Origin: Apteryx mantelli
Lineage: Eukaryota > Chordata > Aves > Apterygiformes > Apterygidae
Length of the DNA: 64,000 nucleotides
NCBI RefSeq assembly: GCF_036417845.1
Contig: NC_090014.1
Coordinates: 372,001 to 436,000, forward strand
Reading direction: 5' to 3'
Shown: positions 30,874 through 64,000 of the stretch, in pieces
Numbering within the stretch: position 1 is the first letter of the stretch
Layout of the letters: every line of letters starts with the position of its first letter
Position numbers and translations under genes: made by a program
The notes under the pieces: model-generated
Seen by the model: only the letters and a program-made list of their open reading frames with translations
The model's database searches: none
What the model was told of the DNA's origin: nothing

Positions 30874-32861
30874 TCAAAAGCCTTTCTCCAGCAGCCACGC
30901 TTTCACCTCGCCGTCGAAGTAGCCCTTGATGCGGAGGGTGCCGGTGAGTTCGTTGACTTGCGTCAGGGGCTCGCGCCCTCGCGCGCCGCCCCAGGAAGGC
31001 CTTGAGCTCCCCTCCAGCGCCTGCCGAAGGAGCCGTTGGAAGCCGGGACCTTTTCCGCCCCCCCCTTTTTTTTTTTATTTTTTCCCGGCCCCGAAACGCC
31101 GGCACTTACCCAAATATCCCCCTCGATTTTCCGGATGACCGTCATCTTCCGGTTGCCGTGGGTGAGGTCGCGGTAGACGGGGACGTTGTGCATGCGGGAG
31201 CGGCGCACGAAGTAGGGCAGGGCGGGCGGCGGGTCTGCCAGCGGAAGGGGGGGAAAAAGCTTCGGAAAGGGGGCACGAAGCGGCCGTTTCCCCCCTCCCC
31301 AGCACCGCCGGGGGCAAATAACCCCCCTCCCGGGGCTGCCGGGGGAGATTTGGGGGGGTTTTGCCCTTCTTCTTACCTCGCAGGGGGCTGCAGCCTGAGG
31401 GGGGGGGAGTATTTAGCTGGTTTTACCCCTCTCTTACTTTGCAGGGGACTCCCATCCCCAAAAAATAGGGGTATTTAACCCGTTTTTACCCCTTTCTCTA
31501 CCTCATGGGGAATTCCAGCCCAAGAAATGGGGGTATTTAGCCTGTTTTTACCCCCTTTAACCTCACGGGGGGCTCCAGCCCCCCCAAATGGGTATTAAAC
31601 TGTTTTCCCCCCCCCTTTTACCTTGTGGGGGGTCTCCAGTCCAAAAAAACAGGGTGTTTTGCCCCTTTTCTTTACCCTTTTTTAGCCCACGAGGTGCTCG
31701 AGTCCAAAGAAGTGGGATATTTAACCCATTTTGGGGTATTTTTGCCTTGTGGAGTCTCTAGTCCAAAAAAGGGGGGACATTTAACCCATTTTTACCCCTT
31801 TTTTCTGCCTCATGGAAATTCCAGCTCCCCCAAATTAGAATATTTAGCCTGGTTTTACTCCCCTTTACCTCACGGTGGGGGGGTGGGGGGGTTCAGCCCA
31901 ATAAAATGGGGGTTTTAGCCCCTTTTCCCCCCCCCTTTACCTCGTGGGGGGCTCCAGCCCGAGGGCGTGGGGTACGAGGGGTGTTTCGGGGGGTCGGGGA
32001 CGCGGGTGGGGGGCAGCAGGCGCTCCACGAAGGCGTATTCAGCTGTGGACTCCACCACGCCGGGGTAGCCGGGCTCGGGGGGGGCCCTCGGAGGGGGTCC
32101 TGGGGGGGTCCTCGGGGACGGGGGGGGCCCCTGGGAAGCTCTGGGGGAAGAGGGGCTGCGGTTGCTCCCCCACGCTGCCCCCAACAGCTCCCCCAAGTTC
32201 CTCCTCCCCTCCAGTCCCCTAATTCCCCCCCCCATTCTCCTCAGGAGCTCCCCAAGTTTCCCTCCATTCATTTCCCCACCCCCAATTCCCCCCCCCAGGA
32301 GCCCCCCAATTCTCCCTGAGAGCCCCCCCCCAAGCTTATCACCCCCCCCAGTTCCCCCCAGGAGCCCCCCAAGTCCCTCCTCCATCTCCCCCTGCCCAAG
32401 TCTTCCCCATCTCTAATTACCCCCTGCAGCCCCCCAAGTTTTCCCCACCTCCAATTCCCTCCAGGAGCCCCCCAAGTTTCCCCCCATTCGTCCCCCCACC
32501 CCCAATTCCCCCAACAGCCCCCCCAAGTCCCCTCTCCACCTCCCCCCTGCCCCAACAGCCCCCCAAGTTTCCTCCCACCCCCATTTCCTCCCCAAGAGAC
32601 CCCCAGGGACCTCCCCAAGCCCCTCCTTCATGTCTCCCTGCCCCAACAGCCCCCCCAATCCCTCCAGGGAGCCCCCCCAGTTTGCCCCCCAACCCCAATT
32701 CCCCCGGGGAGCCCCCTTCGCCCCATAGCCCCCCCCTCTCTCTCTGCGAGCCCCCCCCCGCCCCCCGGTACCTGCACCAGCCGTCGCCCCCCCGCCCGGC
32801 CGAGCCCCGCCAGCCGCCGGCCCAGCGCCCCCGACGCCGCCACCACCACCAGCGCCGCCAT
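30874..32861 (-). CDS. MRPL49: Mitochondrial large-subunit ribosomal protein L49
   Basis: MRPL49 is a protein of the mitochondrial 39S ribosomal subunit. Four exons: 32861-32772 ([19 protein letters not shown], targeting-like), about 32140-31941, 31234-31110 and 31020-30874. Conserved blocks are [89 protein letters not shown] and the end KAWLLEKGF. Exon 3 is clean. Exon 4 changes frame between FLGRRA and EPLTQV, and exon 2 needs one extra base in a C-run upstream of PGYPGVVES. These look like sequence error because splice sites and flanking conserved residues are intact. Exon 2's upper edge at 32140 is my choice from a good pyrimidine tract. MRPL49 is head to head with FAU and tail to tail with the PRPF39-like gene. 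No clear AATAAA for this strand is seen before the neighbouring stop. Confidence 0.93.
31370..31960. repeat. 62 bp array copying the MRPL49 exon 2 donor edge
   Basis: Nine extra copies of about 62 bp fill MRPL49 intron 2. Each contains, on the minus strand, a variant of the last about 20 bases of exon 2 plus its donor (GGCTGGAGCCCCC, then ACGAG, then GTAAA). Copies begin near 31377, 31436, 31499, 31560, 31620, 31684, 31744, 31806 and 31868; the real edge is at 31941. Confidence 0.9.
32180..32765. repeat. C-rich repeats in MRPL49 intron 1
   Basis: Irregular units built from CCCCCCAAGTTTCC, CCACCCCCAATTCCCCC and CTGCCCCAACAGCCCCCCAA fill the intron. Several units contain acceptor-like CCCCAACAG strings on the plus strand, which is not the coding strand. 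Period is poorly defined. Confidence 0.8.
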
Positions 32862-33046
32862 CTTGCGCCGCGAGGCACCCCTGGGACGCGCGCCGGCGTG
32901 CCCCGACGCGCCTACGTCACGCTGTGCGTGCGTGCGTGCCCCGCCCACCCCCGGCGGCGGCGGCGGCGGTGTATAAGAGCGCGCGCATGCGCAGTGCCGA
33001 CCTCTCCGCGGCGCTTCGCGGCTCCATCTTGTGTGGTGGCGCTGAG
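32862..33046. promoter_or_regulatory. Shared MRPL49/FAU bidirectional promoter and FAU exon 1
   Basis: Only about 140 bases separate the MRPL49 start from the likely FAU cap site. The segment holds a TACGTCACG CRE-like site near 32911, a GC box, TATAAGAG at 32972-32979 placed for FAU, and a near-perfect NRF1 site GCGCATGCGCA at 32983-32993. A pyrimidine-rich CCTCTCC at 33001 would suit the 5'-TOP start of a ribosomal-protein mRNA. FAU exon 1 ends at 33046 before GTGAGGCGGG. YY1-type CCATCTTG occurs at both ends. Confidence 0.7.
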
Positions 33047-33960
33047 GTGAGGCGGGTCCGGGGGGGCCCTCGAGGGCTTCTGGGGGTGCGTGAGCCTGAG
33101 GGGGCCTTTTGGTGGGCTTATAGGGGCTTTTGGGGGTGCGTGAGGCTTTTGGGGGACCTGGAGGGGCTTCTGGGGCGCGTGAGGCCTGCGGGGGCCTTTT
33201 GGGGGGCCTCGAAGGGCTTTTAGGCGTGTGTGAGGCCTGCGGGGGCCTTTTAGGAGGTCTCGGGGAGCTTTTGAGGGTGTGTGAGGCCTGCGGGGGCCTT
33301 TTGGGGGGCCTGGAGGGGCTTTGGGGGTGTTTGAGGCCTGGGAGGGGTTTTGGAAGGCTGGGGAGACCTTTTGGGAGGCTTCGAGAGACTTTTGGAGGGT
33401 GTGTGAAGCCTGGAGAGGGCTTCTGGGGCATGTGAGACCTAGGAGGGACCTTTGGGAGATTGGCAGGAGCCTTTTGGGGGGGAGGTCTCGAGGGGCATTT
33501 GGGGGTTGTGTGAGGCCTGGGGGGGGCCTTTGGGAGTGGCTGTGAGGGTTTTGGGGGTTGGGAGTGCTTTTCGGGGGGCCTTTGGGGGGTGCTTAGAGGC
33601 CGAGGGGGTGTCTTTGGAGACTGGGAGGGTCTTTGAGGTGGCTGGGGGGGGCCTGTGAGGCATGGGGAGGGGCTGGGACACCTGGGGAGGGCTTTGGGGG
33701 GGGCGAGGGGAGACCTTTTGGGGATGAGGACGCATTCGGGAGGGGGGTCTGTGATGCCTGGAGGAGTGGAGGAGCCTTTGGGGGAGTCTGTGAGGCTCGG
33801 GGGGGCATTGGGGGGAGTCTGAGGAGCCCAAGGATGTCTGTACTAGCTTATGGGGGGCCTATGAGACTGGTGGGGAGCTTGTGGGGGGCTTTGGAGACTT
33901 GGGGGGGGTTAGGAGTGAGCATGGAGGATTTGGGAGTCTTTAAGGCCTGGGGCTGCAGGT
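33047..33960. repeat. About 56 bp array starting at the FAU exon 1 donor
   Basis: Some fifteen G-rich units carry GGGGGTGTGTGAGGCCTG and GGGGCCTTTTGGGGGGCC. The array starts at the exon 1 donor itself (GTGAGGCGGG), and most units keep a GTGAGGC donor-like string, so the true donor heads a ladder of look-alikes. Confidence 0.85.
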
Positions 33961-34594: not shown

Positions 34595-35309
<715 letters not shown>

Positions 35310-35334
35310 AGGAAGCGCGTTGCCCCACCGCCTC

Positions 35335-36053: not shown

Positions 36054-37140
36054 ATGGCGGCGACGGCGGAGGAGCCGTGCGGCCTGTGCGGCGCCGCGGC
36101 GGCTCCTTACACCTGCCCGCGCTGCAACCGCCGCCTCTGCTCCCTGCCCTGCTACCGGGGCCACGGCGGCTGCGCCGAGGCCTTATACCGGCAGCAGGTC
36201 CTGCAGGCCGCTGGAGGCCGAGCGCGGCGACCCCCCTCCGGGCCGGGCCCGCCTGGACGCCGCCCTGAGGCGGCTGCGGCGGCTAGGCGAGGCCGAGGAT
36301 GAGGCGGCGCCGCTAGGCCACGGCCTCTGGGAGCGCCTCAGCCCGCAGGAACGGGCCGCTTTCCAGCGCCTCGTGGACACGGGGGACGTGGCCGCCTTGG
36401 TGCTGCCCTGGAGACCGTGGTGGTGGCGCGGAGCCGCCCGGAGAGGCTGGTGGAGGAGGTGGGGGAGCCTCTGGGAGGAGGAGGAGAAGAGGAGGAGGAG
36501 GAAGAGTGAAGGCCCCGCGCCGCCCGCTGCCGTGCCCCCGCTGCGCTCCCTGTGCCGCCGGCCCCACCTCGCCCCTGCTGCACTTCCAGCTGCCCAACGC
36601 ACTCTGCGGCTACGCCTTCGCCCTGGCCCTGCACAACGGCGACGACCGCTGCTGCCCGAGGTGCCCGCCGCCGCCCTCCGACGTCTCGGGGGCCCTGGGG
36701 GCCCGGCAGGTTTTTCGGCTCCACCGCCGAGGCCCTGCAGGCCGCCCTGGGCGCCGTCGCCGCTTGCGGCTACCCGCAGTGTCCCCTGGGCGATGCCGGG
36801 GCTCGTGCTGGCGGTGGCGCAGCTGCTGCGGGGTGAGCGGCCGGGTGCCACCGCCACGGCTCTGTCCCACCTCGCCCGGCTGCTGGGCAGGGCAGGAAGC
36901 TGGTGCCGAAGGGAGGAGCGGGGCCGGTTTTACGGGGCCAAGAAGAAGTGCGAGTTCCTGCTCGCCTGGAGCTGCGAGAACCGCCAGGCTCTGAGCTCGC
37001 TGGCCGCCGAGGCGCAGGCCGAGTACGAGAGGCACCGGCGGGCCCTGAGCGAGGTGAGCGCCGTCAGCCGTCAGCTGGAGAGGATGTGGGGCGGCAAAAG
37101 GCCGCCGGAAAAGAAGCCGCTCGTCGAGGAATTGGACTGA
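36054..37140 (+). CDS. ZNHIT2: Zinc finger HIT domain protein 2
   Basis: ZNHIT2 is an R2TP/HSP90 adaptor used in assembling U5 snRNP. It is a single-exon gene, as in mammals. The HIT zinc finger is at the amino end (C9, C12, C21, C24, C29, C33, H37, C40 in PCGLCGAAAAPYTCPRCNRR). Later conserved pieces are LWERLSPQERAAFQRL, LPWRPWWWRG, SPLLHFQLPNALCGYAFALA, FGSTAEALQAAL, LSHLARLLGRA, YGAKKKCEFLLAWSCENR and the end KKPLVEELD. The pieces fall in different frames: at least five single-base slips occur, near 36210, 36437, 36500, 36712 (one T too many) and 36797. Both gain and loss directions are seen, which fits consensus error in GC-rich sequence better than decay, because between slips the protein is well conserved. 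A pseudogene cannot be excluded from the sequence alone. Confidence 0.88.
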
Positions 37141-37965
37141 CGAGCCCCGGAAAGCGCTGCTGGGGAAGGAGCTGCTTGTTGAGGAATTGGGCTAACGAGC
37201 CCTGCAAAGCACTGCTGAGGAAGGGGCTGCTCGTTAAGGAATTGGGCTAACGAGCCCTGCAAAGCACTGCCGGGGAAGGGCTGCTTGTTGAGGAATTGGG
37301 CTAATGAGCTCCCAAAAAATGCCACTGGGAAGAAGCCACCCATTAAGGAAATGGGCTAACGAGTCCCCAAAAATGACACTGGGGAAAAAACCCACTCAGA
37401 GAGGAAACTGGGCTAACGAGCCCCAAAAATGACACTGGGGAAGAAGCTGGTCATTGAGGAACTGAGCTAACGAGCCCCCAAAATCACCACTGGGCGAGGA
37501 ACTGCTCATTAATGATCTGGGCTAATGAGCCCCAAAAAGGCTGTTGTGGAAGAAGTCACTTGTTGACCAACTGGATTAACAAGCGTCCAAAAAACACCAC
37601 TGTGGAAGAATCTGCTCATCAAGGAACTGGGCTAACGAGCTCCCCTACCCCCCCCCCCCCCGGGAAAGGAGCTGCTCATTAAGGAATTGGGCTAACGAGC
37701 CCCAAAAAGCAGCAGCGGGGGATAAGCTGATGAACTGGACTAACGAACGTCTGGAAAGCACCGCTGAGGAAGATGCTGCTTATTGGGGAACTGGGCTAAT
37801 GAACGTCCAAAAAACACTATCAGGGAAGAAGCTGCTCATCAATGAACTGGACTAATGAATGTCCAAAAAACACCACTGAGCAAAAGACCCGCTCGTTAAG
37901 GAGCTGGGCTAACGAGTCCCCCCAGAACACCCCTGGGGAAGAACTCCTTGACGAACCGGACTAAC
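37095..37965. repeat. Array built from the ZNHIT2 stop-codon end
   Basis: The last coding bases and stop (AAGCCGCTCGTCGAGGAATT, then GGACTGACGAG) are followed by about fourteen diverged copies of the same about 58 bp block (GCTGCTCGTTAAGGAATTGG, GCTAACGAGCCC). The coding end is therefore the first unit of the array, and the copies continue through the 3' UTR. Confidence 0.9.
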
Positions 37966-38280: not shown

Positions 38281-41200
38281 TCAGTAGACGTAGGGCACGA
38301 GGCGGTAGGGCACGCGGCGGCAGTACTGCTCCCAGGCGAGGCCGAACTGGCGCCGGCAGCGGCGCTCGTCCCGCGCCGCCCGCAGCCCCAGCAGCGCCGC
38401 CCCGGCCGCCAGCGGCGCGTAGGGCAGCGGGTGGCTCAGGCCTGCGGGGAGCCGCCGTCAGCGCCCAGGGGCCCAGGCGTCCGGGGCCAGGGGGACCCAG
38501 GCATCCGGGACCCGGGTGGCTGGGACTGTGGGGCCAGAGGGACCCAGGCGTCCGGGACCCAGGTGTCTGGTGCCAGGGGGACCCAGGCGTCCGGGACTGT
38601 GGGGCTGGGACCCAGGTGTCCGGGACCCAGGTGTCCAGGACCGTGGGGCCAGAGGGACCCAGGCGTCCGGGACCCAGGTGTCCGGGGCCAGAGGGACCCA
38701 GGCATCCGGGACTGTGGGGCTGGGATCCAGGTGTCCAGGATTTTGGGTGGGGAAGGGACCCAGGTGTCCGGGATTTTGGGGCCAGAGGGACACAGGTGTC
38801 CTGGTGTCTGGGGCCAGGGGGACCCAGGTGTCCGGGACTGTGGGGCCAGAGGGACCCAGGTGGCTGGGACTGGGGGGCCCGAGGGACCCAGGCGTCCGGG
38901 ACTGTGGGGCCAGAGGGACCCAGGTGTCCAGGATTTTGGGTGGGAAAGGGACCCAGGTGTCTGGGATTTTGGGGCCAGAGGGACCCAGGTGTCTGGGACT
39001 GTGGGGTCAGGGGGACCCAGGTGTCCAGGATTTTGGGTGGGAAAGGGACCCAGGTGTCCAGGGCCAGGGGGACCCGGGTGTCTGGGACCCAGGTGTCCCA
39101 GGCCAGAGGGACCCAGGCGTCCGGGACTGTGGGGCCCGAGGGACCCAGGTGTCCAGGATTTTGGGTGGGGAAGGGACCCAGGTGTCCGAGTTCAGGGCCC
39201 CACCAGGGACCCAGGCGTCCGGGCCGGTGCTAGGACGAGGAAGCTGGGGAGGGCCCAGGTGTCCGGGGCTGCGGGGAAGGGACCCGGGTGTCCAAGGAGG
39301 GCTGGTGACGGGGGACCTGGGCGTCGGGGGCCACGGGAAGGGCACCCCGGGACGAGGAAGGGGGGGGGGGCCCAGGCGTCCGGGCACTCACCGCAGGGCA
39401 GGGACCAGGCCAGCGCCATGAGCAGGTCGCCCAGGTCGTCCGGGCGCCGCACGAGGCCCCACCAGCCCCCGGCCAGGAGCAGGCGGCCCGTGGCCGTGGG
39501 CACCGTGGGGAGCCCTGCGGGGGACCCAGGCGTCCGGGAGGGCGGGGTCTGCGCCTCCCCCCGCGTGCCCCCCCCCCCTCCCCGTGTGCCCCCCCAGGGA
39601 GCCCAGGCGTCCGGGGGAGCCCCCTCCGCCCTGCTACCCTTCCCCACAGGGGACCCAGATGTCTGGGTGTCCCCCCCGCCGGGACCCAGGTGTCCCCCCC
39701 CCAGCTCCCTGGGGACCCAGGTGTGTCCCCCCCCCCCCCCCCGGGGGACCCAGGCGTCCGGGCTCACCGGCCACGCGGGGGTCCTGGGGGGTCGCGGCTG
39801 AAGAGGCTCTTCTGGGCCTTGGCGCCGCGGAAGATCGCAAAGCCGAGAGCTGGTGGGGTGGGGGGGAAGGTGAGGGACCCCCCCCGGTACCCCCCGGTAC
39901 TCCACAGTACCCCCCCGGTACTCCACAATACCCCCCATGACCCTCTAGTGCCCCCCAATATCCCAATAGCCTCCCCTTAGGCTCAGCACCCCCCCCATTG
40001 CTGCTGGTACCCCCCGATACCCCCCAGTACTCCCCTGTTATCCCTGTTACTCCCCATGTTACCCCGTTACTCCATACAGTTGAGCAGGAGGAGGGTGGCA
40101 GCAGCCAGCAGTGCTGTGGTGCCCTGTTCCTCCCTGGTACCCCCGTTATTTGCCCCATTACCCTTGTTGCTCCCTGTTACCCACCCTGATATCTCTGCTA
40201 CTTCCATTATTTGCCCGGTTACCCTGTTACTCACCCTGTTACTCACCCCATACCACCATTACTCACCCCGTTACCCCCATTACCGTGTTACCCACCCCGA
40301 TACCCCCGTTACTTGCCCTGTTACCCCCGTTGCTCCCCATTATCCACCCCGATACCCCCCGGTACCCCGTACCATAGAGCAGGACGAGGGCGGCAGCGGC
40401 CGGCGCCGCTCCTGTGCCCCGTTACTCGCGCCGTTACCCACCCCGCTCCGCCTGTTACTCCCCGTTACCCCGTACCGTAGAGCAGGACGAGGGCGGCAGC
40501 GGCCGGCACCGCTCCTGTGCCCCGTTACTCACTCCGTTACCCACCCTGCCCCACCCGTTACTCCCTGTTACTCCCCGTTACCCCGTACCGTAGAGCAGGA
40601 CGAGGGCAGCGGCGGCCGGCGCTGCTCCTGTGCCCCGTTACTCGCTCCGTTACCCACCCGCTACTCCCTGTTACTCCCCATTACCCCGTACCGTAGAGCA
40701 GGACGAGGGCGGCGGCGGCTGGCAGCCCCAGGCGCCGGGGCCGGGCCAGCAGGAACTGGGCCGGGAGGCTGGCGCCGAAGGGGAGCCAGGCCAGCGCCCC
40801 GAAGGCCCCCAGGAAGCCGAAGGCCTCGCGCGGCCCCTCCTCCGCCTGCGGGGCCCAGGCGTCCGGGAGGGTCCCCCACACAGAGCCCTCCCCCCCCCCC
40901 GCCCCCCCTCCAGGGGACCCAGGCGTCCGGGTGCCCCCCACCCACCGTGGGCCCAGGCGTCCGGGTGCCCCCATCCCCCAGGGACCCAGGTGTCCAGGTG
41001 CCCCCCATCCCCCAGGGATCCAGGCGTCTGGGCGCCCCCCCCACCCACCGGGGACCCAGGCGTCCGGGTGCCCCCCCCCCTCCCCCCCGCCCCCGCCGTG
41101 GGCCCCGGCGTCCGGGCACCTCGTGGCGCAGGCGCTGCAGCACGTAGAGGCCCTGCCCGGCCGCCACCAGCGCCAGGGGCAGCGAGGGGCCGCCCCGGAG

Positions 41201-44200
41201 CTGCGTCTCCCGCAGCACCAGCGCCGCGTCCACCACCGCCTGCGCCCCGGCGAGTAACGGCGAGTAACGGCGAGTAACGCGGGGTGATGGGCAGCGAGGG
41301 AGAGCGCCAGGATAGTGGGGAGTACCAGGGAGGAACATGAGGGATCCAGGAACGAGGGAGAGCGTCAGAGTAACAGGGAGTAATGCAGAGTAACGGGGAG
41401 TAACGCGGGGTGATGGGCAGCAAGGGAGAGCGCCAGGGTAGTGGGGAGCACCAGGGAGGAACACGAGGGATCCGGGAACGAGAGAGAGACCGTCCGAGTA
41501 ACAGGGAGTAATGCAGAGTAACGGGGAGTAACGCGGGGTGATGGGCAGCGAGGGAGAGCGCCAGGATAGTGGGGAGTACCAGGGAGGAACACGAGGGATC
41601 CAGGAACGAGGGAGAGCGTCAGAGTAACGGGGAGCAATGCAGAGCAATGGGAGGGTAACGGGGAGTAACACACAGCAATGGGGGTGCAATGCAGAGTAAC
41701 ATGGGCATAACATGGGGTGGGGTGGAGTAACACAGGGTAATAGAGATGGGGCAGCATGGGGTAACAGGGAGAAACAAGTAACATGGGGTAACCGGGAACA
41801 AGGGGGAGCACCCGAGTAACAGGGAGTAACACGGGGTACCAGAGCATAACGTGCAACAGGGATAATGGAGAGCATTAGAGTAAGGGGGAGTAACAAGCAG
41901 TAATGAGAAGCAATATGGGGCAATGGGGAGTAACATGGAGTAATGAGCAGTAATAGGGTAATAGGAGTAACAAAGAGTGACATGTAACGGGGACAAGGGA
42001 GAGCAACAGGGCAATGAGCAGCAATGCGGGGTATTAGAGAGTAACACAAGGTAATAGGGATGTGGGGTAGTGGATAACATGGGGTAGAAGACAGTAATGG
42101 GGAGTAACATGGAGTAACAGAGTGGTAAAAGGGGTAACAGGCCAGGGTGAGGGGGGCCAGGGGTATTGGATGTGGGCAATGGAGAGAAAACACGGGGTAA
42201 TGGGGAGTAACGGGTGAAAGAAAAATAAGTGGGTGCAAGAGAGGAATAACGGGGTAACAGAGGTAACGGGGTGATGGGGGTAACGTGCTCCCCTGCACCC
42301 CTCTTACTCCTTGTTACTCCCCATTACCCCATACCCTTACCCTGTTACCCATGTTACCCCGTTCCCTGCTCTGTTACCCCATTAGCCCCATTCCCTGCTC
42401 CATTACCCCTGTTCCTCCGTTGTTTTACCCCATTACCCCTCATCCCCCACCCCATTACTCCCAATTAATTACCCCTGTCCCCTGCCCCATTACCCCCATG
42501 TTAGCCGTCTCCCCCCCATTACCCCTGCGCCTTTACCTCCTATTACCCTCATCCCCTGCCCTGTTACCCCGTGTTACCCTGTCTCCCACCCCATTACCCT
42601 CCACTACTCCCACCCCCTGCCCAGTTACTCCCCGTTACCCCCATGTTACCCCATCTCCCACCCTGTTACCCCTGTGTTACCCCAACCCGTTACCCCCACC
42701 CCCCACTGTTACCCCATATTACCTCCATCCCGTTACCCCCCATTACCCCTGTCCCCTGCCCCATTACCCCCCATCCCCCCCGTGTCCCCCGCCCCATTCC
42801 TCCCTGTTACACCCGTGTCCCCTGCTCTGTTCCCCCCCATGTCCCCCCGTTACCCCTATCCTCTGCCCTGTTACCCCGTTACCCCTGTCCCCTGCCCTGT
42901 TACCCCCCATTCCCCCTGTGTCCCCCACCCTGTTACCCCCCGTTACCCCATCCTCCACCCTGTTACCCCCCGTTACCCCCGTCCCCTGCCCTGTTCCCCC
43001 CTGTGTCCCCCGCCCCATTACCCCCATTCCCCCCCGTGTCCCCCACCCCGTTACCCCCGTGTCCCCCCGTTACCCCCATCCACCACCCTGTTACCCCCAT
43101 CCCCTGCCCTGTTACCCCCCATTACCCCTGTCCCCTGCCCTGTTACCCCCCGCTACCCCCCATGTCCCCCTCCCCGTTACCCCCCGTGTCCCCCCCCGTG
43201 TCCCCCCCCGTGTCCCCCCCCGTTCCCGTTCCCGCCGCGGCCCTACCCAGGCGCCCAGGCCGGGGCGCAGGCGGCAGAAGCGGCTCAGCTCCAGGGCGCC
43301 CGGGCGGGGACCCGGCTCCCGGCCCACGAAGAACTCGTACACGGCGCCCCCTGCCGCGACCCCCGCCGTGACCCACGGCGACCCCCACGCTGCCCCACGG
43401 CACCCCCACGCTGCCCCACGGCACCCACGGCGCCCCCTGCCGCGACCCCCGCCGTGACCCACGGCGACCCACCGCCACCCCCACGCTGCCCCACGGCACC
43501 CACGGCGCCCCCTGCCGCGACCCCCGCCGTGACCCACGGCCACCCCCACCGCCACCCCCCACGCTGCCCCACCGCCACCCCCACGCTGCCCCACAGCATC
43601 CACGGGGCCCCCTGCCACGACCCCCCACCGTGACCCACGGCCACCCCCACTGCGACCCCCACGGCCACCCCCACGGTACCCCACGGCACCCACGGCGCCC
43701 CCTGCCGCGACCCCCGCCGTGACCCACGGCGACCCCCACGCTGCCCCACGGCGACCCCCACGCTGCCCCACGGCACCCACGGCACCCCCACGCTACCCCA
43801 TGGCACCCACGGGGCCCCCTGCCGCGACCCCCGCCGTGACCCACGGCGACCCACCGCCACCCCCATGCTGCCCCACGGCACCCACGGCGCCCCCTGCCGC
43901 AACCCCCGCCGTGACCCACGGCGACACACCGCCACCCCCCACGCTGCCCCACCGCCACCCCCACGCTGCCCCACGGCACCCCCTGCCACGACCCCCGCCG
44001 TGACCCACAGCACCCACGGCCACCCCCACGCTGCCCCACGGCACCCACGGCGCCCCCTGCCGCGACCCCCCGCCGTGACCCACGGCGACCCACGGCCACC
44101 CCCACGCTGCCCCACAGCACCCACGGCGCCCCCTGCCGCGACCCCCCCGCCGTGACCCACGGCGACCCACGGCCACCCCCACGCTGCCCCACGGCACCCA

Positions 44201-49330: not shown

Positions 49331-49339
49331 GGGGGGGGG

Positions 49340-53100: not shown

Positions 53101-54078
53101 AGGGGGGGCTGTGACCCCCAGCTGCCCCCCGGGACCCCCAAATACCCCCCCGGGACCCCCAGCTGCCCCCCGGGACCCCCAAATACTCCCCCCGGACCCC
53201 CGACTGCTCCTCACTGCCCCCCAGACCCCTCCACTGCCCCATAGGGACCCCCCAGAACCCCCAAGCACCCCCCAACTACCCTTATTGCCCCATAGGGCCC
53301 TCTGCCAGCACCCTCAGAGCCCCCCCCACCCCACGGACCCTCCCGGAGCCCCCCAACTGCCCCATAGGGACCCCCAACACCCCCCTGCCCCATTGACACC
53401 CCCCCAGCTCCCCCACAGGGACCTCAACACCCCCCTGCCCCTTAGAGACCCCCCCAGTTCCCCCATAGGGACCCCCAACACCCCCCCGCCCCATTGAGAC
53501 CCCTCCAGTTCCCCCATAGGGACCCCCAACACCCCCCCACCCCATTGAGACCCCCCCCAGTTCCCCCATAGGGACCCCCAACACCTCCCCTCCCCTAGAG
53601 ACCCCCCCAGTTCCCCCATAGGGACCCCAACACCCCCCCGCCCCATTGAGACCCCCCCAGTTCCCCCATAGGGACCCCCAACATCCCCCCGCCCCATTGA
53701 GACCCCTCCAGTTCCCCCATAGGGACCCCCAACACCCCCCCTCCCCTAGAGACCCCTCCAGTTCCCCCATAGGGACCCCCAACACCCCCCCGCCCCATTG
53801 AGACCCCCCCAGTTCCCCCATAGGGACCCCAACACCCCCCCCGCCCCATTGAGACCCCCCCAGTTCCCCCATAGGGACCCCCAACACCCCCCCCCGCCCC
53901 CTAGGGGCGCTCCGGACCGCCCCCCCGATGCCCCGCCCCCCGCCCCTAGTGCTCGCCTCCCGGACCCCCCAACTCCCCCCCGGTTCCCCACCACCACCCC
54001 TGGGTGCCCCCCGGGTCCCCCCTCACCCCCCGGGGCCGCCGTGGCCGCCCGGGGCCGCGCGGCGCCACTCGCCGCCAT
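50187..54078 (-). CDS. CDCA5: Sororin, cohesin-protecting protein
   Basis: Sororin holds sister chromatids together by opposing WAPL on PDS5-bound cohesin. Five exons: 54078-54027, 53084-53032, 52552-52514, 51507-51142, 50267-50187, with GT/AG edges and phases that sum to 196 codons plus stop (human 252). Visible landmarks are a basic serine-rich amino end (ARRSSGSAPARR, RRSLRLRGQ), a KEN degradation box at residues 53-55, a proline-rich middle, the PDS5-binding-type RRSYSRLE, a basic patch ERRRKRKVAP, and the carboxyl-terminal sororin motif LEAWAARMNAQFEEAERFDL then VVE. The FGF motif present in mammalian sororin is not found; the only phenylalanines are in the last exon. The frame is clean, in contrast to neighbouring genes. 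Head to head with ZFPL1. Confidence 0.93.
50290..51120. repeat. GGGGACACAGAGG repeats in CDCA5 intron 4
   Basis: Purine-rich irregular units, GGGGACACAGAGGGGACATG and GGAGGGACACGG, fill the intron between the last two exons. The complementary strand is C-rich. Confidence 0.9.
51540..52495. repeat. About 42 bp array in CDCA5 intron 3
   Basis: Units alternate GTGGAGATGTCCCCAACCCC with GCGGGGACGTCCCTGTCC. About 22 units fill the intron. Confidence 0.92.
52620..53020. repeat. TGTCCCTGCCGTG repeats in CDCA5 intron 2
   Basis: Short irregular units such as CGTGTCCCTGCCATGTCCC and CGTGTCGTGGCACGTCC. One copy of CCCGGACGCCTGGG stands near 52588. Confidence 0.85.
53110..53905. repeat. About 55 bp array in CDCA5 intron 1
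   Basis: About a dozen units of the form CCCCAGTTCCCCCATAGGGA followed by CCCCCAACACCCCCCCGCCC and CATTGAGACC. Nearly identical copies between 53440 and 53890 suggest recent expansion. Confidence 0.93.
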
Positions 54079-54391: not shown

Positions 54392-57300
54392 ATGGGGCTC
54401 TGCAAGTGCCCCAAGCGGAAGGTCACCAATCTCTTCTGCTTCGAGCACCGGGTGAACGTCTGCGAGAGCTGCCTCGTCGCCAACCACCACAAGGTGCCGC
54501 GGCGGAGGGGAGGGGAAGAGGGGGGGGGTCTCGGGGTGCCCCCCCGCGGGTCTCGGGGTGCCCCGGACGCCCCCCCCCGACGCCGCCTGTTCTCCCCCCC
54601 CTCCGCTTCCCAGTGCATCGTCCAGTCCTACCTGCAGTGGCTGCAGGACAGCGACTACAACCCCAACTGCCGCCTCTGCGGGACCCTGCTGGCCGCCCGC
54701 GACACCGTGCGCCTCGTCTGCTACGGTGCGCCTCGAGACCGCCGGGCGGGGGGGTGCGGGGGGGGCCTCGAGACCGCCGGGCGGGGGGGTGCGGGGGGGC
54801 CTCGAGACCGCCGGGTGGGGGGGGTGCGGGGGGGCCTCGAGACCGCCGGGCGGGTGGGGTGCGGGGGAGCCTCGAGACCGCCGGGCAGGGGGGCGCGGGG
54901 GGGCCTCGAGACTGCCATAAGAGGGGGCCTTGACACTGCCATCCAGTGGGGTGCGGGGGGGCCTTGACACTGCCGTCTGGGGACACGAGGGGCCCCGAAA
55001 CTGCCCTCCTGGGGTCAGGGGAGCCCTGACACCACCCTCCTGGGGCACAGGGGGCCCCGACACAACTTTTCAGGGCTTGTGGGGGATCCCAAAACTGCCA
55101 TCCTGGGAGTGGGAGCACTGAAACCACTCCCTGGGGTGTGGGGGACCCTTTGGGGGGGGGCAGAGAGCCTTGAAACCGCCTTGTAGGGGAGCAGGGGATC
55201 TTGAAACTGCTCCTCGGGGGAAAAAGGGAAACAAAACCTGCTGTTTGCAGCGAGGGGAGCCCTGAAACTGCCCACCAGGGGGATGGGGGACCCCAAAACT
55301 GCTCTCCGGAGCAACAGGGGGCCCCAAAACTGCCATCTAGGGAGCAGGAAGATCCCAAAACTGCCCTCCAGGAGGACAGGGGATCCCAAAAACAGTCCTG
55401 TGGGGGGTGGGGGACCTTGAAACCAACGGGGTCCCCACAAAAGAGGACTTTTGGGGGGAAGGGGACTTGAAAACCGTCATTTGGGGAGATGGGGGCCCTG
55501 GAACTGCTTGTTGGAGGGAAGGAGACCCCCAAAACCACCTTTTCCGGGATTAAGAGGCCCCGAAAACTCTCTTTACAGGGTGGGGAAGCCTCAAAACTGA
55601 CACTCGGGGGAAAGAGAAGCCCTGAAACCACCTTTTAGGGGAAGGGGGGGCCTTGAAACTGTTCTTTTAGCAGATGGGGGACCCTGAAACTGTTTTTTAA
55701 GGGACAGGGGGAGCTTGAAACTGCCCTTCAGGGGGGTGGGGACCCCCAAAACAGGCTTTTTTGGGGTTTCTGGGGGTCGGGGGGGTTGTGCGTGGTTCGG
55801 GGGGGTTGAGGGGGTCCCCGGGTGCCTGGTGACGCCCCCCTCCCCGTCCCTGTCCCCCCCCCAGACCTGTTCCACTGGTCGTGCCTGGCGGCGCGGGCCC
55901 GGGCGCTGCCCCCCCGCACGGCGCCCGCCGGCTACCGCTGCCCCAGCTGCGGGGGGCCCCTCTTCCCCCCCCCGAACCTGGAGGGCCCCGTGGCCGCCGC
56001 CCTGCGCGCCCGCCTCGCCGCCGCCCCCTGGGCCCGCCCCGGCCTCGGCCTGCCCCTGGTGAGTGACCCCCCCCCCCCGCGACACCCCCTGGTGCCCCCC
56101 AACTGCCCCCCGGTGCCCCCAATCTCCCCCTGCTATTGCCGGTCCTGGAGGGGGGGGGGTCCCCAAGGTCCTGGGTTTGGGCTGCCCCTATTGAGACCCC
56201 TGACCCCCCCCCCATCACCCCTGGGGGCCCCTGACACCCCCCCCCATCAGCTCTGGGGGCCCCAACCCCCCCCCCAGGGCCCCCCAATCACCCCTTGGGT
56301 CCCCTGACCCCCCCCCAGGACCCCCCAGCACCTATGGGTGCCCCTGACCCCCCCTGATCACCCCTGGGGGTCCCAAACCCCCCCCCCCAGGGCCCCTCAA
56401 TCACCTCTGGGGGCCCCCGACCCCCCCCTGACCCCCCCCCCAGATCGAGGAGGCCGAGGCGGCGCCGGAGCTGGAGCCGGAGCCGGAGCCAGAAGCGGGC
56501 TGCCGACACCTGGGGCAGCTTCGGGGGTGAGTGTTGGGGGGGGGGGGCAGGACCCTGGGACCCCCCCACCCCACCCCACCCCCAGGGGGGACCCGCCCGG
56601 ACGCCTGGGCCCTCCCTGACCCCCCCCGGTGTCTCCGCAGCCCCCCCAGCTGCCGCCGAGGCCCCCCCGAGCCCCCCGGGCCGCCCACGCCGTCGTCCAC
56701 GTGGGCACCGAGACCCTCGTGCTGCACGGTGAGCCGGGACCCCCGGAACGGGGCTGGGGACCCCCAAAAGGGGGATAGGGACCCCCGGAATGGGGCTGGG
56801 GACCCCTGAAAGGGGGTGGGGACCCCCGGAATGAGGCTGGGGACCCCAAAAGGGGGATAGGGACCCCGGAACGGGCTGGGGACCCCCAAAAGAGGGATAG
56901 GGACCCCCAAAATGACAATAGGGACCTCCAGAATGGGGCTGGGGACCCCTGAAATGGGGGTGGGGACCCCCAAAAGGGGATAGGGACCCCCAAAATAGGG
57001 ATAGAGACCCCCGAAATGGAGCTGGGGACCTCAGAACAGGGATAGGGACCCCCGGAACAGGGCTGGGGCCCCCTGAAATGGGGGTAGGGACCCCCGGAAG
57101 GGGGCTGGGGACCCCCAAAATGGGCATAGGAACCCCCAGAATGGGGCTGGGGACCCCTGAAACAGGAGTAGGGACCCCGAAATGGGCCTGGGGGACCCCC
57201 CAAAATGGGCCTGGGACCCCCAAAATGACAATAGGGACCCCAGAAGGGGGCTGGGGACCCCCAAAATGGGAATGGGGACCCAAAAAGGGTTAGAAAACCC

Positions 57301-58904
57301 TCGAAGAGTTTGGGGACCCCCAAAATGGGCTGGGGACCTTCAGGAGGGACCTAGGGGGCCCCCCCCCAAAAGGGGCTGGGGACCCCCCAGGGGGAGCTGG
57401 GGGACCCCCAAAATGGGGCTGGAGACCCCCCAAAATGGGCCTTGGGACCCCAAATGGGGCTGGGGACCCCCCATATGGGGCTAGGGCCCCCCAAAGGGGG
57501 TTGAGGGGCCCTGGGGGGGGTTGGACCCTGATTTTGGGGGGGTCGGGGGGCCCTGGGGGGGTTCAGAGCCCCGTTTTGGGGTCTGGGGGGGGTCGGGGAC
57601 CCCCGTTTCGGGAGCCCCCCGCTGACGCCGCCCCCAGGTTCTGCCCCCCGCAAGCCCCTGGGGGGCGCGAGAGCCGCGACCCCCCCGACCGCGACGAGGA
57701 CAAGTACCGGGCGGCGGCGGGTGCTCAGGTGGGGCCGCGAAACGGGGCGAAACGGGTGGAAACGGGCAAAACGGGGGGGTGGGGGGGAAAACGGGGAGCC
57801 CCCCCCAGCGGGCGCTCAGGTGTGGGCCGCGAAACGGGGTGAAACGGGGTGGAAACGGGCAAAACGGGGGGGTGGGGGGGAACGGGGAGCCCCCCCCCAG
57901 CGGGCGCTCAGGTGGGGCCGCGAAACGGGCGAAACGGGGCGGAAACGGGCAAAACGGGGGGGGGGTGGGGGGGGAAACGGGGAGCCCCCCCCCGGCAGGC
58001 ACTCAGGTGGGGCCGCGAAACGGGGTGAAACAGGGCAGAAACAGGCAAAATGGGGGGACGGCGGCACAGGCTCTGGTGGGGACAGTGAAATGGGGTGAAA
58101 ACGGGGCAAAATGGAGCAAAATAAGGGGAAATGGGGTGATAACGGAGAGAAACGGGGGCTTGCAGCGTGCGCTCTGCGTGGGAGCAGGGGAAACGGGGCA
58201 GGACGGGGTGAAACGGGGTGAATTGAGGCAGGATTGGACAAAACGGGGTGAAACCGGGGCGGAATGGGGTGAAACAGGGCAAAATAGGGCAAAACGGGGG
58301 CAGGACGGGGCTGGAACGGGGGGGCAAAAATGGGGCGGGATGAGGCAAAACGAGGCGAAACCAGGGACAAAACGGGCAGAATGGGACAAAATGGGCCAGG
58401 TGGGGGACGGAACGGGGCAAAATGGGGCAGAATGGGGACAAAAAAGGGGTAAAGGGGGGGCAGGAAGGATTCGGGGGGGGTTGGAGGGATTTGGGGTCAG
58501 GGAGGATTGGAGGGTCTGGGGGATCAGGAAGGATTCGGGGGGATCAGGAAGGATTTGGGGGGTCAGGAAGGATTTGGGGGGGTTCAGAAGGATTCGGGGG
58601 TCAGGAAGAATTGGGGGATTTGGAGGGATTTGGGGGGTCAGGAAGGATTTGGGGGGGTCCAGGGGGATTCAGAGGGATTTGGGGGGGGTCCGGGGGCCCC
58701 TGACCCCCCCGTCCCCGCTCCGGCCCGCAGGTGCTGGCCCCGGGGGCGCCCCCCCCGCCCCCCCGCTGCTGGTCCTGGCCCTGGGGGGGGGCCCTGGCCT
58801 TCGTCGCCCTCCTCGTCCTCCTGGCGCGCCTGGGCCGGGCGGCCGCCGCCAACGACCCCGCGCTGGAGCCGCTGCGCAACCCCCACCTGCGCGTGGGGCC
58901 CTGA
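54392..58904 (+). CDS. ZFPL1: Zinc finger protein-like 1 (Golgi membrane protein)
   Basis: ZFPL1 is a cis-Golgi tail-anchored protein that binds GM130. Exons: 54392-54493 ([20 protein letters not shown]), 54614-54725 ([20 protein letters not shown]), 55865-56058 ([39 protein letters not shown]), 56444 to about 56526, 56641-56728 ([15 protein letters not shown]), 57638-57728 ([14 protein letters not shown]) and about 58731-58904. The amino half holds the B-box-like and RING-like cysteine pairs. The last exon encodes the hydrophobic anchor [19 protein letters not shown] and ends NPHLRVGP. Exons 1-3 are clean. Frame slips in G/C runs are needed in exon 4 (before DTWGSFG), in exon 5 (after SPPGRP), in exon 6 (after APRKPL) and in the last exon before the anchor. 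Splice sites are normal, so error is likelier than decay. Confidence 0.92.
54726..55745. repeat. Arrays in ZFPL1 intron 2, starting at the donor
   Basis: About five units of about 43 bp (GGTGCGGGGGGGCCTCGAGA, CCGCCGGGCGGG) begin directly at the exon 2 donor GGTGCGCCTCGAG and repeat its GGTGCG string. They pass into about twelve looser units of about 60 bp with TGAAACTGCCCTCC and GGGGACCCCAAAACTGC. Confidence 0.88.
56070..56440. repeat. C-rich repeats in ZFPL1 intron 3
   Basis: Irregular units of CCCCTGACCCCCCCCCATCA and CCTCTGGGGGCCCC. Period is not well defined. Confidence 0.75.
56735..57500. repeat. About 30 bp array in ZFPL1 intron 5
   Basis: Some 25 units such as GGGGCTGGGGACCCCCAAAA and GGGGATAGGGACCCCCGGAA; both halves are partly complementary (GGGG/CCCC). 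Exon edges are not included. Confidence 0.92.
57715..58450. repeat. 92 bp array copying the ZFPL1 exon 6 donor edge
   Basis: Units of about 92 bp contain the end of exon 6 and its donor (GCTCAG followed by GTGGGGCCGCGAAACGGG). Clear copies lie near 57812, 57905 and 57999 after the true donor at 57729; further decayed copies follow to about 58190. The rest is GAAACGGGGTGAAACGGGG filler. Confidence 0.92.
58460..58690. repeat. GGATTTGGGGG repeats before the last ZFPL1 exon
   Basis: Short units AGGATTTGGGGGGTCAGGA fill the end of intron 6 up to the CCCCCGTCC tract before the acceptor. Confidence 0.85.
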
Positions 58905-59486: not shown

Positions 59487-59509
59487 AACGAAGGCAGGAG
59501 ATAACGAGC

Positions 59510-59770: not shown

Positions 59771-59831
59771 CCTTCCCCCCCCCCCCGCGGGGTGGCCATT
59801 AAAGGCGCAGGTGTGACGAGCGCGTGGGGCC

Positions 59832-60921: not shown

Positions 60922-61089
60922 GCGGCCGCCAGCGCCGCCCCCCCCGGGCGCCGCCCGGCCCCCAGCGCCCTCCGCCACCCCCCCCGCCACCGGCGGCAGC
61001 ACCGGCGACGGGGGCGGTGACAGGGGGGGGCGACGACGGCGACGGGGGGGCGGCTGCGGGGCGGCCACCGAGCTCGGCGACGGGCCCGG

Positions 61090-61530
61090 GGGGGCGGCGG
61101 CTGGGTGACGCTCCGGGGTGGCCCCGAGGCTGTTGATGGGCGCCAGGGTGTCCCGAGGGGTGGCGGGTGACGTCTGGGTGACGTTCCGGGGTGGCCCCGA
61201 GGCTGTTGATGGGCACCAGGGTGTCACCAAGCCTGGGGGGGTGGTGTCTGGGTGACACTTTGGGGTGTCCCCAAGGCTGTTGATGGGCGCCAGGGTGTCC
61301 CCGAGGGTGGCAGTGACGTCTGGGTGACGCTCCAGGGTGGCCCCGAGGGTGGCGTCGTCGTCTGGGTGACGCTCCAGGGTGTCCCCGAGGCTGTTGATGG
61401 GCGCCGGGGTGTCCCCAAGGGTGGCAGTGACGTCTGGGTGACGCTCCAGGGTGGCCCCGAGGCTGTTGATGGGCGCCGGGGTGTCACTGTGCCTGGGGGG
61501 TGGCGTTTGGGTGACACCCTGGGGTGTCCC
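61090..61530. repeat. 72 bp array upstream of the TMEM262-like exons
   Basis: Five or six units of about 72 bp with GAGGCTGTTGATGGGCGCCA, GGGTGTCCCC and CGTCTGGGTGACGCTCCAGG. It may lie in the 5' region or an intron of the minus-strand gene; long open frames on both strands are periodic artefacts. Confidence 0.88.
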
Positions 61531-61699
61531 CGAGCCTGGAGGGACGCCAGGGCTGCGAGGGACGGGGGATCCGGGTGGCCGAGAAGGGCTCACGGCGAGG
61601 GCCCAGGCGTCCGGGAAAGGCTCACGGCGAGGGCCCAGGCGTCCGGGCGGGACCCAGCAGCAAGTCCCCGAGCCCCAGGGGCTTGTGGGAAGAGGGGCC

Positions 61700-61930
61700 C
61701 AGGCGTCCGAGCGCCCGCGGCCGTTGTGACGTCGCGGCCGTTCCGTCGCCGCCGCCGCCGCGGCGCTCGGCGGGCGCCATTTTCGCGCCGCCCGTTGCCA
61801 TGGCGACGCGCGCCGCTTCCCGCCCGAGGCGGCGGGCGGAAGTGACGCGCGGGGAGGCGGTGGGGCCGGAAGCGGCGGGGCGGGGCCGGAAGCAGCTGTT
61901 GCAGCAGCAGCAGCGGCGGCGGGGGCGGCC
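61700..61930. promoter_or_regulatory. Shared TMEM262-like/VPS51 bidirectional promoter
   Basis: CpG-rich segment with a TGACGTCG CRE-like site near 61727, CGCCATTTTCGCGCC (YY1/E2F-like) near 61775, GCGGAAGTGACGCG (ETS plus CRE-like) near 61835, and an X-box at 61794-61807. It lies directly upstream of the VPS51 start. Confidence 0.6.
61794..61807. promoter_or_regulatory. X-box (RFX-type) motif
   Basis: GTTGCCATGGCGAC differs at one base from the symmetrical RFX site GTTGCCATGGCAAC. RFX factors drive ciliary and flagellar genes, which would suit a sperm-flagellum gene on the minus strand; VPS51 could also use it. Confidence 0.6.
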
Positions 61931-64000
61931 ATGGCGGAGGCGGCGGCGGCGGCCGGGGGCAGCCCCGAAGCCGGGGCCGAGGCCGATCCGGGGCCGAGCC
62001 GGGCCGGCGACGGCCCACGGGCTGCTCCAGCGCTACTACGGGCTGCCCGAGGCGGCGGGGGAGGCCCCGGACCCCGCCGACATTAACGGGGCCTCACTTC
62101 GACCCGGAAGTGTTCCTCACCAAGGTGACCTTTGACCCCCGGCGCCCCTAAGGCGACCCCCGCCCCACTCCCCCCCCCGATCCCTATGGGCCCCTATGGA
62201 CCTCCATAGGGGCAGCGTTGGGGGGGGCCCGGGGGGCAGTTGGGGGCCCCGGGGGGGCAACTAGGGCCCCTGGGATGGTCGCTGGGGCATATTTAGGGGC
62301 TCAGGGGGGCGGTTGGAGGCCCGAGGGGGGGCAAATAGGGGTCCCGGGGGGCAGTTTTGGCCCTGTTTTGTCCCCCTAGCTGTGCAGCAGGTGCCCCCTG
62401 GGGCAGTTGGAGGTCCTGGAGGAGGTGTTAGGGGTGCTGGGGGGCAGTTAGGCCCTTTCAGGGGCAGTTGTGACCCCCTTTTTCCTCCCCATCTGCACAG
62501 TGAGTCCCCCCTGGGGCAGTTGGGGGTCCCGGGGGGGCAGTTGTGACCCCTCTTGCCCCCCCAGCTGCGCAGCGAGTGCCCCCTGGGGCAGTTGGGGGGC
62601 CCAGGGGGGGCAGTTGGGGCTTCGGGGGGGGGCAGTTGTGACCCGTTCTGCCCCCCAGCTGCGCAGCGAGTGCCCCCTGGGGCAGCTGCTGGCCCGCGAG
62701 GCCGAGCTGGTGCGGCAGATCCGGGCCCTCGACAGCGACATGCAGACGCTCGTCTACGAGAACTACAACAAGTTCATCTCCGCCACTGGTGCGGGTCCAG
62801 GTGTCCGGGGAGGGGGCCCAGGCGTCCGCGGGGGGGGGGCCCAGGCGTCCGGGGAGGGGGGCCCAGGTGTCCAGGGGGGGACCCAGGTGTCCGGGGAGGG
62901 GCCCAGGTGTCTGGGTGCTGGTTGCAGTACAGTGATGCTGGGGGGGCTCTGGGAGGGGCCCAGGCGTCCGGGGAGGGAGCCCAGGCATGGGGGGGAAGGT
63001 GGGCCCAGGTGTCTAGGGGGTCCGAAGCGTCCAGAGAACCCAGGAGGGGACCCCAGGCGTCCGGCTCAGGGGCCCAGGCATCCGGGAGAGGGACCCAGGT
63101 GTCTGGGGAGGGGGCCCAGGTGTCCGGAGAGGACCCAGGCATCCGGGGGGGACCCCAGGGAGGGACCCAGGCGTCCGGGGAGGACCGGGACACGCAGGTA
63201 GGTGTCGGGGTGGGGGCCCAGGCATCCGGGGGACCCAGGCGTCCGGGCCGCGCCCTTTCTCCCCCCCCCCCCAGACACCCATCCGGAAGATGAAGGCCGA
63301 CTTCCGGCGCATGGAGGCCGAGATGGACGGCCTGGCCGCCAACATGGCCGCCATCACCGCCTCCAGCGCCCGCGTCAGCGCCGCGCTCCAGGACCGGCAC
63401 CACCGCGGCGCCCAGCTCGCCGTGCGCTGGGGGGGGCCGGGGGGGGCAGATCTGAGGGGGTGGGGGGTCCTAGGGGGCAGATATGGGGGGTTGGGACAGA
63501 TCTGAGGGGTTTGGAGGGATCCTGGGGGGGCAGATTTGGGGGGTTGGGGGCATTGGGGATACCTGGGGGGCAGATCTGGGGGGTTTGGGGTAGATCTAGG
63601 GAGTTGGGGGGTCCTGGGGGGGCAGATCTGGGGGTGTTGGGGCAGATCTGGGGGGCTGAGGGGGACCCTGGGGGGCAGATTTGGGGGGTTGGGGGTAGAT
63701 CTAGGGAGTTGGGGGGTCCTGGGGGGGCAGATCTGGGGTGTTGGGGCAGATCTGGGGGGCTGAGGGGGACCCTGGGGGGCAGATTTGGGGAGTTGGGGTA
63801 GATTTGGGGGGGCTGAGGGGGACCCTGGGGGGCAGATTTGGGGGGTTGGGGTAGATCTGGGGGTTGGGGGGACCCTGGGGGGGCAGATTTGGGGGGTTGG
63901 GGTAGATCTGGGGGGTTGGGGGGACCCTGGGGGGCAGATTTGGGGGGTTGGGGCAAATCTGGGGGGATGGGGGGACCCTGGGGGGCAGATCTGGGGGGTT
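61931..64000 (+). CDS. VPS51: VPS51 subunit of GARP/EARP tethering complexes (partial)
   Basis: VPS51 links the GARP and EARP tethers to syntaxins for endosome-to-Golgi transport. The gene runs past the window edge; three exons are seen. Exon 1, 61931-62124, has an alanine/glycine-rich start ([20 protein letters not shown]), then [16 protein letters not shown] and FDPEVFLTK. Exon 2, 62659-62788, is [40 protein letters not shown] and SAT. Exon 3, 63275 to about 63421, is [20 protein letters not shown] then [13 protein letters not shown]. Exon 2 is clean. Exon 1 changes frame before HGLLQR and again before HFDPE (one T too many), and exon 3 has one C too many before IRKMKA. The conserved coiled-coil amino end is otherwise continuous. 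The end of exon 3 is uncertain by a base or two. The promoter is shared with the TMEM262-like gene. Confidence 0.9.
62200..62658. repeat. Array copying the VPS51 exon 2 acceptor edge
   Basis: Three copies of the acceptor and first about 25 bases of exon 2 (CCCCCAGCTGCGCAGCGAGT, then GCCCCCTGGGGCAG) precede the true exon at 62659. The copy near 62565 is almost identical, those near 62378 and 62495 more diverged. Between them are GGGGGGCAGTTGGGGGTCCC fillers. Confidence 0.92.
62795..63270. repeat. CCCAGGCGTCCGG array in VPS51 intron 2
   Basis: About 17 units of about 28 bp, GGGGCCCAGGCGTCCGGGGA, fill the intron from the exon 2 donor to the acceptor tract. Confidence 0.93.
63425..64000. repeat. 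GGGGCAGATCTGGGG array in VPS51 intron 3
   Basis: Regular units of about 60 bp, GGGGGGCAGATCTGGGGGGT and TGGGGTAGATCTAGGGAGTT, run to the window edge. Near-identical neighbours suggest recent expansion. Confidence 0.92.

Follow-up and report, generated by a model that had tools for sequence, protein, structure and literature searches.

The window analysed here is a stretch of 64,000 nt from Apteryx mantelli (contig NC_090014.1, here C37, positions 372001-436000), in which several adjacent genes carry tandem arrays whose repeat units include an exon edge together with its splice site; positions below are those of the window unless prefixed with C37. The contig is 777 kb long in a 1.50-Gb assembly of 408 contigs, and it is likely to be a dot microchromosome. 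Ten genes were modelled, comprising 68 exons, 58 introns, and 35,531 intron bases: SYVN1, a PRPF39-like gene, MRPL49, FAU, ZNHIT2, TM7SF2, CDCA5, ZFPL1, an unnamed gene (59.8-60.9 kb), and VPS51. The models omit another gene at approximately 1.9-7.7 kb. Pfam searches returned matches to SYVN1, PRP39, mL49/Img2, ribosomal S30, the HIT zinc finger, ERG4/ERG24, sororin, and VPS51, and sequences of solved structures matched the window genes for mL49, eS30, sterol reductase, and PRPF39. The alignment of the PRPF39-like gene (21962-30644) to solved PRPF39 covered 541 residues with an E value of 3e-230. The Pfam search with the ZFPL1 model gave no match above the cut-off, and the name ZFPL1 follows an earlier sequence-based reading of the window (the initial annotation); a sequence search for solved relatives of VPS51 found none. 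Ab initio prediction over the following 56 kb yielded exons recognised as the rest of VPS51, ARL2, BANF1, EIF1AD, and SART1, of which BANF1, ARL2 (Arf family), and three SART1 pieces were backed by Pfam; the Pfam search gave no match for the EIF1AD and VPS51 pieces.

Tandem Repeats Finder (TRF) returned 349 rows in the window. Minisatellite arrays occupied 56% of the intron bases and 6.5% of the exon bases, and in the repeat-dense genes 74% of the intron bases lay within arrays. Repeat cover per 4-kb bin stayed at 0.00-0.41 as far as C37:408000 and was 0.42-0.92 between that point and 492000, and GC content per 4-kb bin was 0.63-0.78 from C37:408001 to 492000. The switch from sparse to dense repeats lies inside the window at about 36000 (C37:408000) and forms a natural border between ordinary gene neighbourhoods and stuttering ones, in the sense given below.

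For each junction, 40 exonic and 40 intronic bases were aligned to the rest of the intron, with 40 dinucleotide-shuffled introns as a control. This analysis revealed a junction-spanning alignment at 19 of the 116 window junctions and none at the other 97. Five junctions were strongly spanned, with scores of 60-122, and at each of them none of the 40 shuffles reached the score. Six further window junctions likewise exceeded all 40 shuffles, but with scores of only 19-48, and were treated as weak. The strongly spanned junctions belong to the following arrays, in which the copies lie in the intron adjacent to the source exon; TM7SF2 exons 7 and 5 are presumably exons 6 and 4 of the initial annotation under another numbering.

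MRPL49 intron 2 array, 31373..31962, minus strand: unit of about 60 bp with the last ~20 nt of exon 2 (31941-32099, minus strand) and its donor (between 31940 and 31941); score 60.
TM7SF2 intron 7 array, 40041..40725, minus strand: unit of about 103 bp with 32-34 nt of exon 7 (40692-40845, minus strand) and its donor (40691), in 4 copies beside the real one; score 122.
TM7SF2 intron 4 array, 43337..44845, minus strand: unit of about 75 bp with the acceptor (43350) of exon 5 (43247-43350, minus strand) and 11 exonic nt, in 18 further copies that all have AG; score 102.
ZFPL1 intron 6 array, 57713..58110, plus strand: unit of about 92 bp with 12-14 nt of exon 6 (57638-57728, plus strand) and its donor (57728), in 3-4 copies; score 82.
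VPS51 intron 1 array, 62354..62690, plus strand: 3 copies spaced 72-113 bp apart, with the acceptor (62658) of exon 2 (62659-62788, plus strand) and ~30 exonic nt; score 100.

All five had been named in the initial annotation as arrays that contain an exon edge and its splice site, and the shuffles and aligned ladders of copies bore this out.

In the next 56 kb, 7 of 50 junctions were counted as strongly spanned, each with 33 to 70 exonic bases: the donor and acceptor of BANF1, the acceptors of SART1 introns 3, 4, and 9, the SART1 intron 7 donor, and the VPS51 exon 6 acceptor. Some of these are stronger than the cases in the window; at the BANF1 donor, for example, 69 exonic nt were copied at 100% identity. 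The strong set used below consists of 12 edges, 5 in the window and 7 beyond it, with 1 to 18 copies per edge. The VPS51 exon 10 acceptor (score 118) was rejected as a stuttered edge because the corrected acceptor makes its array intronic, and the EIF1AD intron 2 donor (score 76) was left out with 7 exonic bases. The SART1 intron 6 donor scored 116 with 10 exonic bases in a low-complexity match; it was rejected as a strong edge and left among the weak ones.

Six weak edges were counted, each with at least 10 exonic bases and a score above every shuffle (40 in the window, 20 beyond). They are the SART1 intron 6 donor, intron 2 donor, and intron 7 acceptor, together with three candidates in the window:

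TM7SF2 exon 9 donor, 39246..39415, minus strand: score 48, 18 exonic nt, 0 of 40 shuffles; low-identity gapped similarity with a CCAGGCGTCC-type array.
TM7SF2 exon 7 acceptor, 40806..41068, minus strand: score 43, 40 exonic nt, 0 of 40 shuffles; low-identity gapped similarity.
CDCA5 exon 1 donor, 53115..54056, minus strand: score 43 against a shuffle maximum of 36, with 30 exonic nt; the similarity is G-rich and is to a single place at the distal end of intron 1.

The CDCA5 exon 3 donor (7 exonic bases), the intron 2 donor of the unnamed gene (7), and the EIF1AD intron 1 acceptor (9) also exceeded all shuffles and were not counted, and neither was the SYVN1 intron 3 acceptor (score 19), which lies in the repeat-poor part.

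Protein homology was used to check the joins at MRPL49, TM7SF2 exon 7, VPS51 exon 2, BANF1, and SART1 introns 3 and 9. The alignment of mL49 to solved chains was unbroken across the exon 2/3 join, and thus the innermost MRPL49 donor yields the conserved protein. Similarly, alignment to delta(14)-sterol reductase continued across the TM7SF2 exon 7 join, the VPS51_Exo84_N domain continued across the VPS51 exon 1/2 join, a Pfam domain ran across the SART1 intron 3 join, and the joins at the BANF1 intron and at SART1 intron 9 were crossed by close matches of BAF and of the end of SART1 to solved chains. The claim of the initial annotation that the real splice site is always the innermost copy was therefore confirmed at all joins checked by protein homology, whereas its "always" exceeds these joins. 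At VPS51 exon 5/6, the join as modelled here does not keep the reading frame. An innermost real site would be expected, because the geometry of a local duplication that spares the protein requires it.

The outer copies carry decoy splice sites. Among 59 junction-spanning copies, which had to align around the splice site to enter the count, 56 kept GT or AG, where the identity of the remaining copy sequence (0.95 overall) predicted 53.3, and these 59 showed no sign that decoy splice sites are purged. Retention at this level could suggest that selection maintains the copied exon fragments because they function as alternative exons or as splice regulators; however, it is near the value that the rest of the copy predicts, and copy number ranges from 1 to 18, so that we give this explanation hardly any credence. 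Within coding exons, the period of TRF rows was divisible by 3 in 16 of 19, a count in which rows partly overlap and to which codon-level bias contributes. This is as expected if duplications arise everywhere and are filtered by the reading frame. The acidic tail of the EIF1AD-like gene (C37:463531-463630; positions 131531-131630 of the joined region) contains a coding repeat with a period of 24, which may be a case of in-frame stuttering within an exon.

The initial annotation regarded exon-edge arrays as an undescribed class of avian minisatellite, a view that is wrong in the light of Hron et al. 2026 (PMC12954441; Genome Biol Evol, February 2026), who described "sequence/exon stuttering" on the dot microchromosomes of chicken. 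The consulted sections of that paper report 115 genes and 236 introns affected, 190 of these on dot chromosomes, with over 90% of the source segments lying no more than one base from an exon border, an exonic length of 20-187 nt (median 36), and copies that include the donor or acceptor site. Large differences in length between chickens are described too, as are local repeat expansions in other birds in some instances and verification of the PHF8 arrays in raw nanopore reads; for the mechanism, the authors do not decide between strand invasion in meiosis and replication stress at DNA that is GC-rich or forms quadruplexes. A comparison with randomly placed arrays was not found in these sections of PMC12954441. 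Our literature search, by title and abstract, gave no other paper on an exon-edge array class among the matches listed.

By the sequence features that define it, the present arrays are classed as exon stuttering. Like those of chicken as described in PMC12954441, they are imperfect direct tandem copies of a lateral exon part and its splice site, placed in the adjacent intron beside an intact exon, and the coding sequence was indeed intact across the checked stuttered joins. Both occur in repeat-dense, GC-rich DNA with units of tens to hundreds of bp, in introns otherwise full of simple repeats. The middle exonic length is around 36-41 nt in both; for the ten strong cases with at least 20 nt, it ranged from 20 to 70 nt with a median of 41 by longest copy. 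The main text of PMC12954441 does not name FAU, MRPL49, TM7SF2, ZFPL1, VPS51, BANF1, or SART1.

The published screen accepts a blastn-short match if it has at least 20 nt and 42.1 bits, falls in the adjacent intron, and exceeds shuffled introns (as given in the consulted sections of PMC12954441). When rerun, it flagged 2 of 58 window introns (TM7SF2 exon 7 and VPS51 exon 2) and 6 of 25 introns in the next 56 kb (BANF1, SART1, and VPS51), while the MRPL49, ZFPL1, and TM7SF2 exon 5 arrays failed its threshold. Every match above the threshold lay in the adjacent intron (4/4 in the window and 26/26 beyond; 30/30), and the maxima over five shuffles were 26.3 bits in the window and 40.1 bits beyond. 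Below the threshold, the window gave two distal matches (32.2 bits, PRPF39-like exon 2) and one adjacent match. The screen does not demand that a source reach the exon border, but all listed sources did so except those of TM7SF2 exon 7 (2 nt short) and SART1 exon 7 (3 nt short); the 12 strong cases span the junction by construction of our test.

To place the edges against chance, we used the repeat-dense genes (MRPL49 onward; 55 introns, 144 arrays, 110 junctions) and a null in which arrays were positioned at random with overlap into exons allowed up to one unit. The strong edges numbered 12 with at least 10 exonic bases (16.6-17.3 expected), 10 with at least 20 (11.6-12.1 expected), and 9 with at least 30 (8.8-9.2 expected). 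Across six null variants with other overlap limits and other periods, the expectation was 8.3-19.0 compared with the 12 strong edges, and over the whole set of assumptions random placement gave 8 to 24 edges; these values are steered by the TRF array limits and periods, and the MRPL49 and TM7SF2 exon 5 arrays were only partly caught by TRF. The 55 introns thus gave no clear sign of an excess of arrays at junctions over random placement, and the edge overlap above random expectation raised in the initial annotation did not appear in this regional comparison. The repeat-poor genes (28 introns) had zero strong edges against 2.9 expected. Because edge overlap shows no clear excess, seeding targeted to junctions is not needed to account for it.

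Three further arrays had been described in the initial annotation as starting from exon ends, namely from the stop-codon end of ZNHIT2 and exactly at the donors of FAU exon 1 and ZFPL1 exon 2.

ZNHIT2 array, 37108..37941, plus strand: unit of about 55 bp that takes in roughly 30 nt from the end of the coding sequence, stop codon included, and is repeated to the 3' side.
FAU intron 1 G-rich array, 33062..33440, plus strand: not anchored at the exon 1 donor.
ZFPL1 intron 2 array, 54730..54961, plus strand: starts ~5 nt after the exon 2 donor and is essentially intronic.

The ZNHIT2 description held: the array has 11 further copies of the unit with its stop codon, it involves no splice site, and a TRF row of period 55 (37111-37640) spans the stop codon. 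The stop reads TAA in the 11 further copies and TGA in the real stop. A genome search with two ZNHIT2 units, which skips simple repeats and scores best candidates only, listed six matches, all at this locus. The two donor arrays fared otherwise. At FAU exon 1 the alignment score was reached by 11 of 40 shuffles and the TRF start lies 15 nt inside the intron, so the array was rejected as an anchored one, and in the ZFPL1 intron 2 ladder only 1 of 5 further copies aligned with exon bases, at low identity.

The initial annotation had offered two readings of the edge arrays. In the first, the duplication process targets exon-intron junctions, for example through R-loops or G-rich non-template DNA at donors, and seeds arrays there more often. 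The copied sources of chicken, more than 90% of them within 1 base of a border (PMC12954441), fit such targeting, but an exon-based screen itself favours border sources, because tandem copies wholly inside coding exons would often break the protein. In the 300 nt next to the edge, the coding strand was G-rich at 9 of the 12 strong edges, as targeting would predict, but it was C-rich at the other 3 (the BANF1 acceptor and the acceptors of SART1 introns 4 and 9), and 2 of the 12 edges lie in C-rich introns. Of the 55 repeat-dense introns, 36 are G-rich and 16 are C-rich on the coding strand; the G-rich tendency is regional and no rule at edges. Targeting also gains from overlaps of under half a unit, which exceed some versions of the null, and from the 18 edges obtained when weak ones are included, which exceed one of the six variants. 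The total strong edge overlap, however, is not above random placement, donors (5) do not outnumber acceptors (7), and the ZNHIT2 array has no splice site. We therefore consider the targeting reading improbable and favour the second, in which a general process becomes visible at exon edges because these are fixed landmarks, and which the edge counts fit.

Taken together, the arrays are very probably exon stuttering in the sense of local tandem duplication and expansion of short segments seeded without junction targeting. Several results weigh against this interpretation in its purely random form. The strong and the six weak edges together make 18, a count that exceeds the lowest of the six 95% ranges (4-13) and falls inside the other five, and the window alone shows a deficit, with 5 edges of at least 10 exonic bases against 10.8-15.1 expected (mean 11.5, P(<=5) 0.009). 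The depth of overlap is a further point. The exonic fraction of the unit was 0.11-0.46 in all 12 strong cases, always below half (the MRPL49 value of 0.11 uses a long inter-copy gap and becomes 0.33 with the 60-bp unit). Under full-range random placement, 10.5-15.9 overlaps deeper than half a unit would be expected and none was seen (P(0) at most 0.0002), whereas overlaps under half a unit numbered 12 against 5.2-9.5 expected (P 0.003, 0.011, 0.083, and 0.217), an excess in the stricter variants. In addition, the arrays are known from a single assembly with apparent base-level errors in coding sequence, and the exon models are partly ab initio, those beyond the window wholly so. Given the absence of deep overlaps and the surplus of shallow ones, random placement by itself is not enough, and the model has to be supplemented by some bound on exonic depth.

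Such a bound could come from selection on randomly seeded arrays, if long exon fragments acted as decoy exons that are spliced in and then purged, which would keep the exonic part below about half a unit. The fractions of at most 0.46 and the missing deeper overlaps agree with this, but the pattern was spotted post hoc and ignores the weak edges, among which the TM7SF2 exon 7 acceptor, with 40 exonic nt beside an array whose period is 34, would count as deep if it is real. Selection of this kind also predicts depleted decoy splice dinucleotides, whereas 56 of 59 were kept, and exon copies in chicken reach 187 nt in the consulted sections of PMC12954441. We regard this selection as possible, if unlikely. 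As a more doubtful proposal, splicing may set a ceiling, such that seeds fall at random and persist only if their exonic part is below about half the unit; the fragment sizes would then record how much exon a decoy can carry before the spliceosome uses it.

The coding sequences of FAU, ZNHIT2, and MRPL49 are otherwise conserved but contain apparent frame breaks, which fall within 34770-35310 in FAU and 36054-37140 in ZNHIT2, and FAU is unread at one residue. These breaks look like base-level assembly error, and they would be in line with an artefact in which polishing or collapse errors in GC-rich DNA make or distort the arrays. The copies, however, differ mutually by substitutions, spacing is fairly regular at most of the twelve edges, and the chicken PHF8 arrays were confirmed in raw nanopore reads (PMC12954441), so that an artefactual origin is highly improbable, although copy number in the present arrays may be wrong.

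Under the favoured interpretation, segments of ~60-190 bp would be duplicated and expanded in the non-coding parts of genes, on a microchromosome rich in GC and dense in repeats, with seeds falling more or less anywhere. Where a seed straddles an exon edge, the first copy would stay as the functional edge, and extra copies carrying the exon fragment and a decoy site would stack on the intron side. Seeds within coding exons would persist mainly when in frame. No other part of the source is fixed and recognisable, and this would make the exon edge look like an anchor. The molecular process may be replication slippage or repair-templated duplication under GC or G-quadruplex stress, followed by unequal exchange or gene conversion.

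Classical GC-rich intronic minisatellites, or variable number tandem repeats, consist of imperfect tandem copies of GC-rich units of 10-200 bp. The arrays described here share this tandem, GC-rich, imperfect organization; unlike the classical ones, they fill 74% of the intron bases in the repeat-dense genes, and some of their units contain coding sequence. Intron gain by tandem duplication of coding segments copies splice signals, as happens here, but in the present case the introns pre-exist, the copies pile up inside them, and the coding sequence across the checked joins is unchanged.

Among the intronic repeats, the motif CCAGG[C/T]GTCC (often GGGACCCAGGCGTCCGGG) recurs in several genes (38460-39300, 45960-47280, and 60120-63250; C37:472001-476000). 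In the form CCAGGNGTCC it occurs 80 times on the plus strand and 13 times on the minus strand of the window, and as CCAGG[C/T]GTCC it has 45 occurrences, on both strands, in one 4-kb stretch beyond the window. The small unnamed gene (59833-60900, minus strand) has no Pfam match, and its first modelled intron carries CCAGGCGTCC-type arrays. A link of the arrays to the human MSR1 minisatellite was not borne out by the literature search at the level of the matches listed.

These results extend a phenomenon known from chicken to further genes (MRPL49, TM7SF2, ZFPL1, VPS51, BANF1, and SART1) in what is probably another species. They also answer, within a single 164-kb region, whether exon edges attract arrays or merely reveal them, and the ladders of mostly intact decoy splice sites beside the real ones are natural test material for how splicing selects among near-identical sites.

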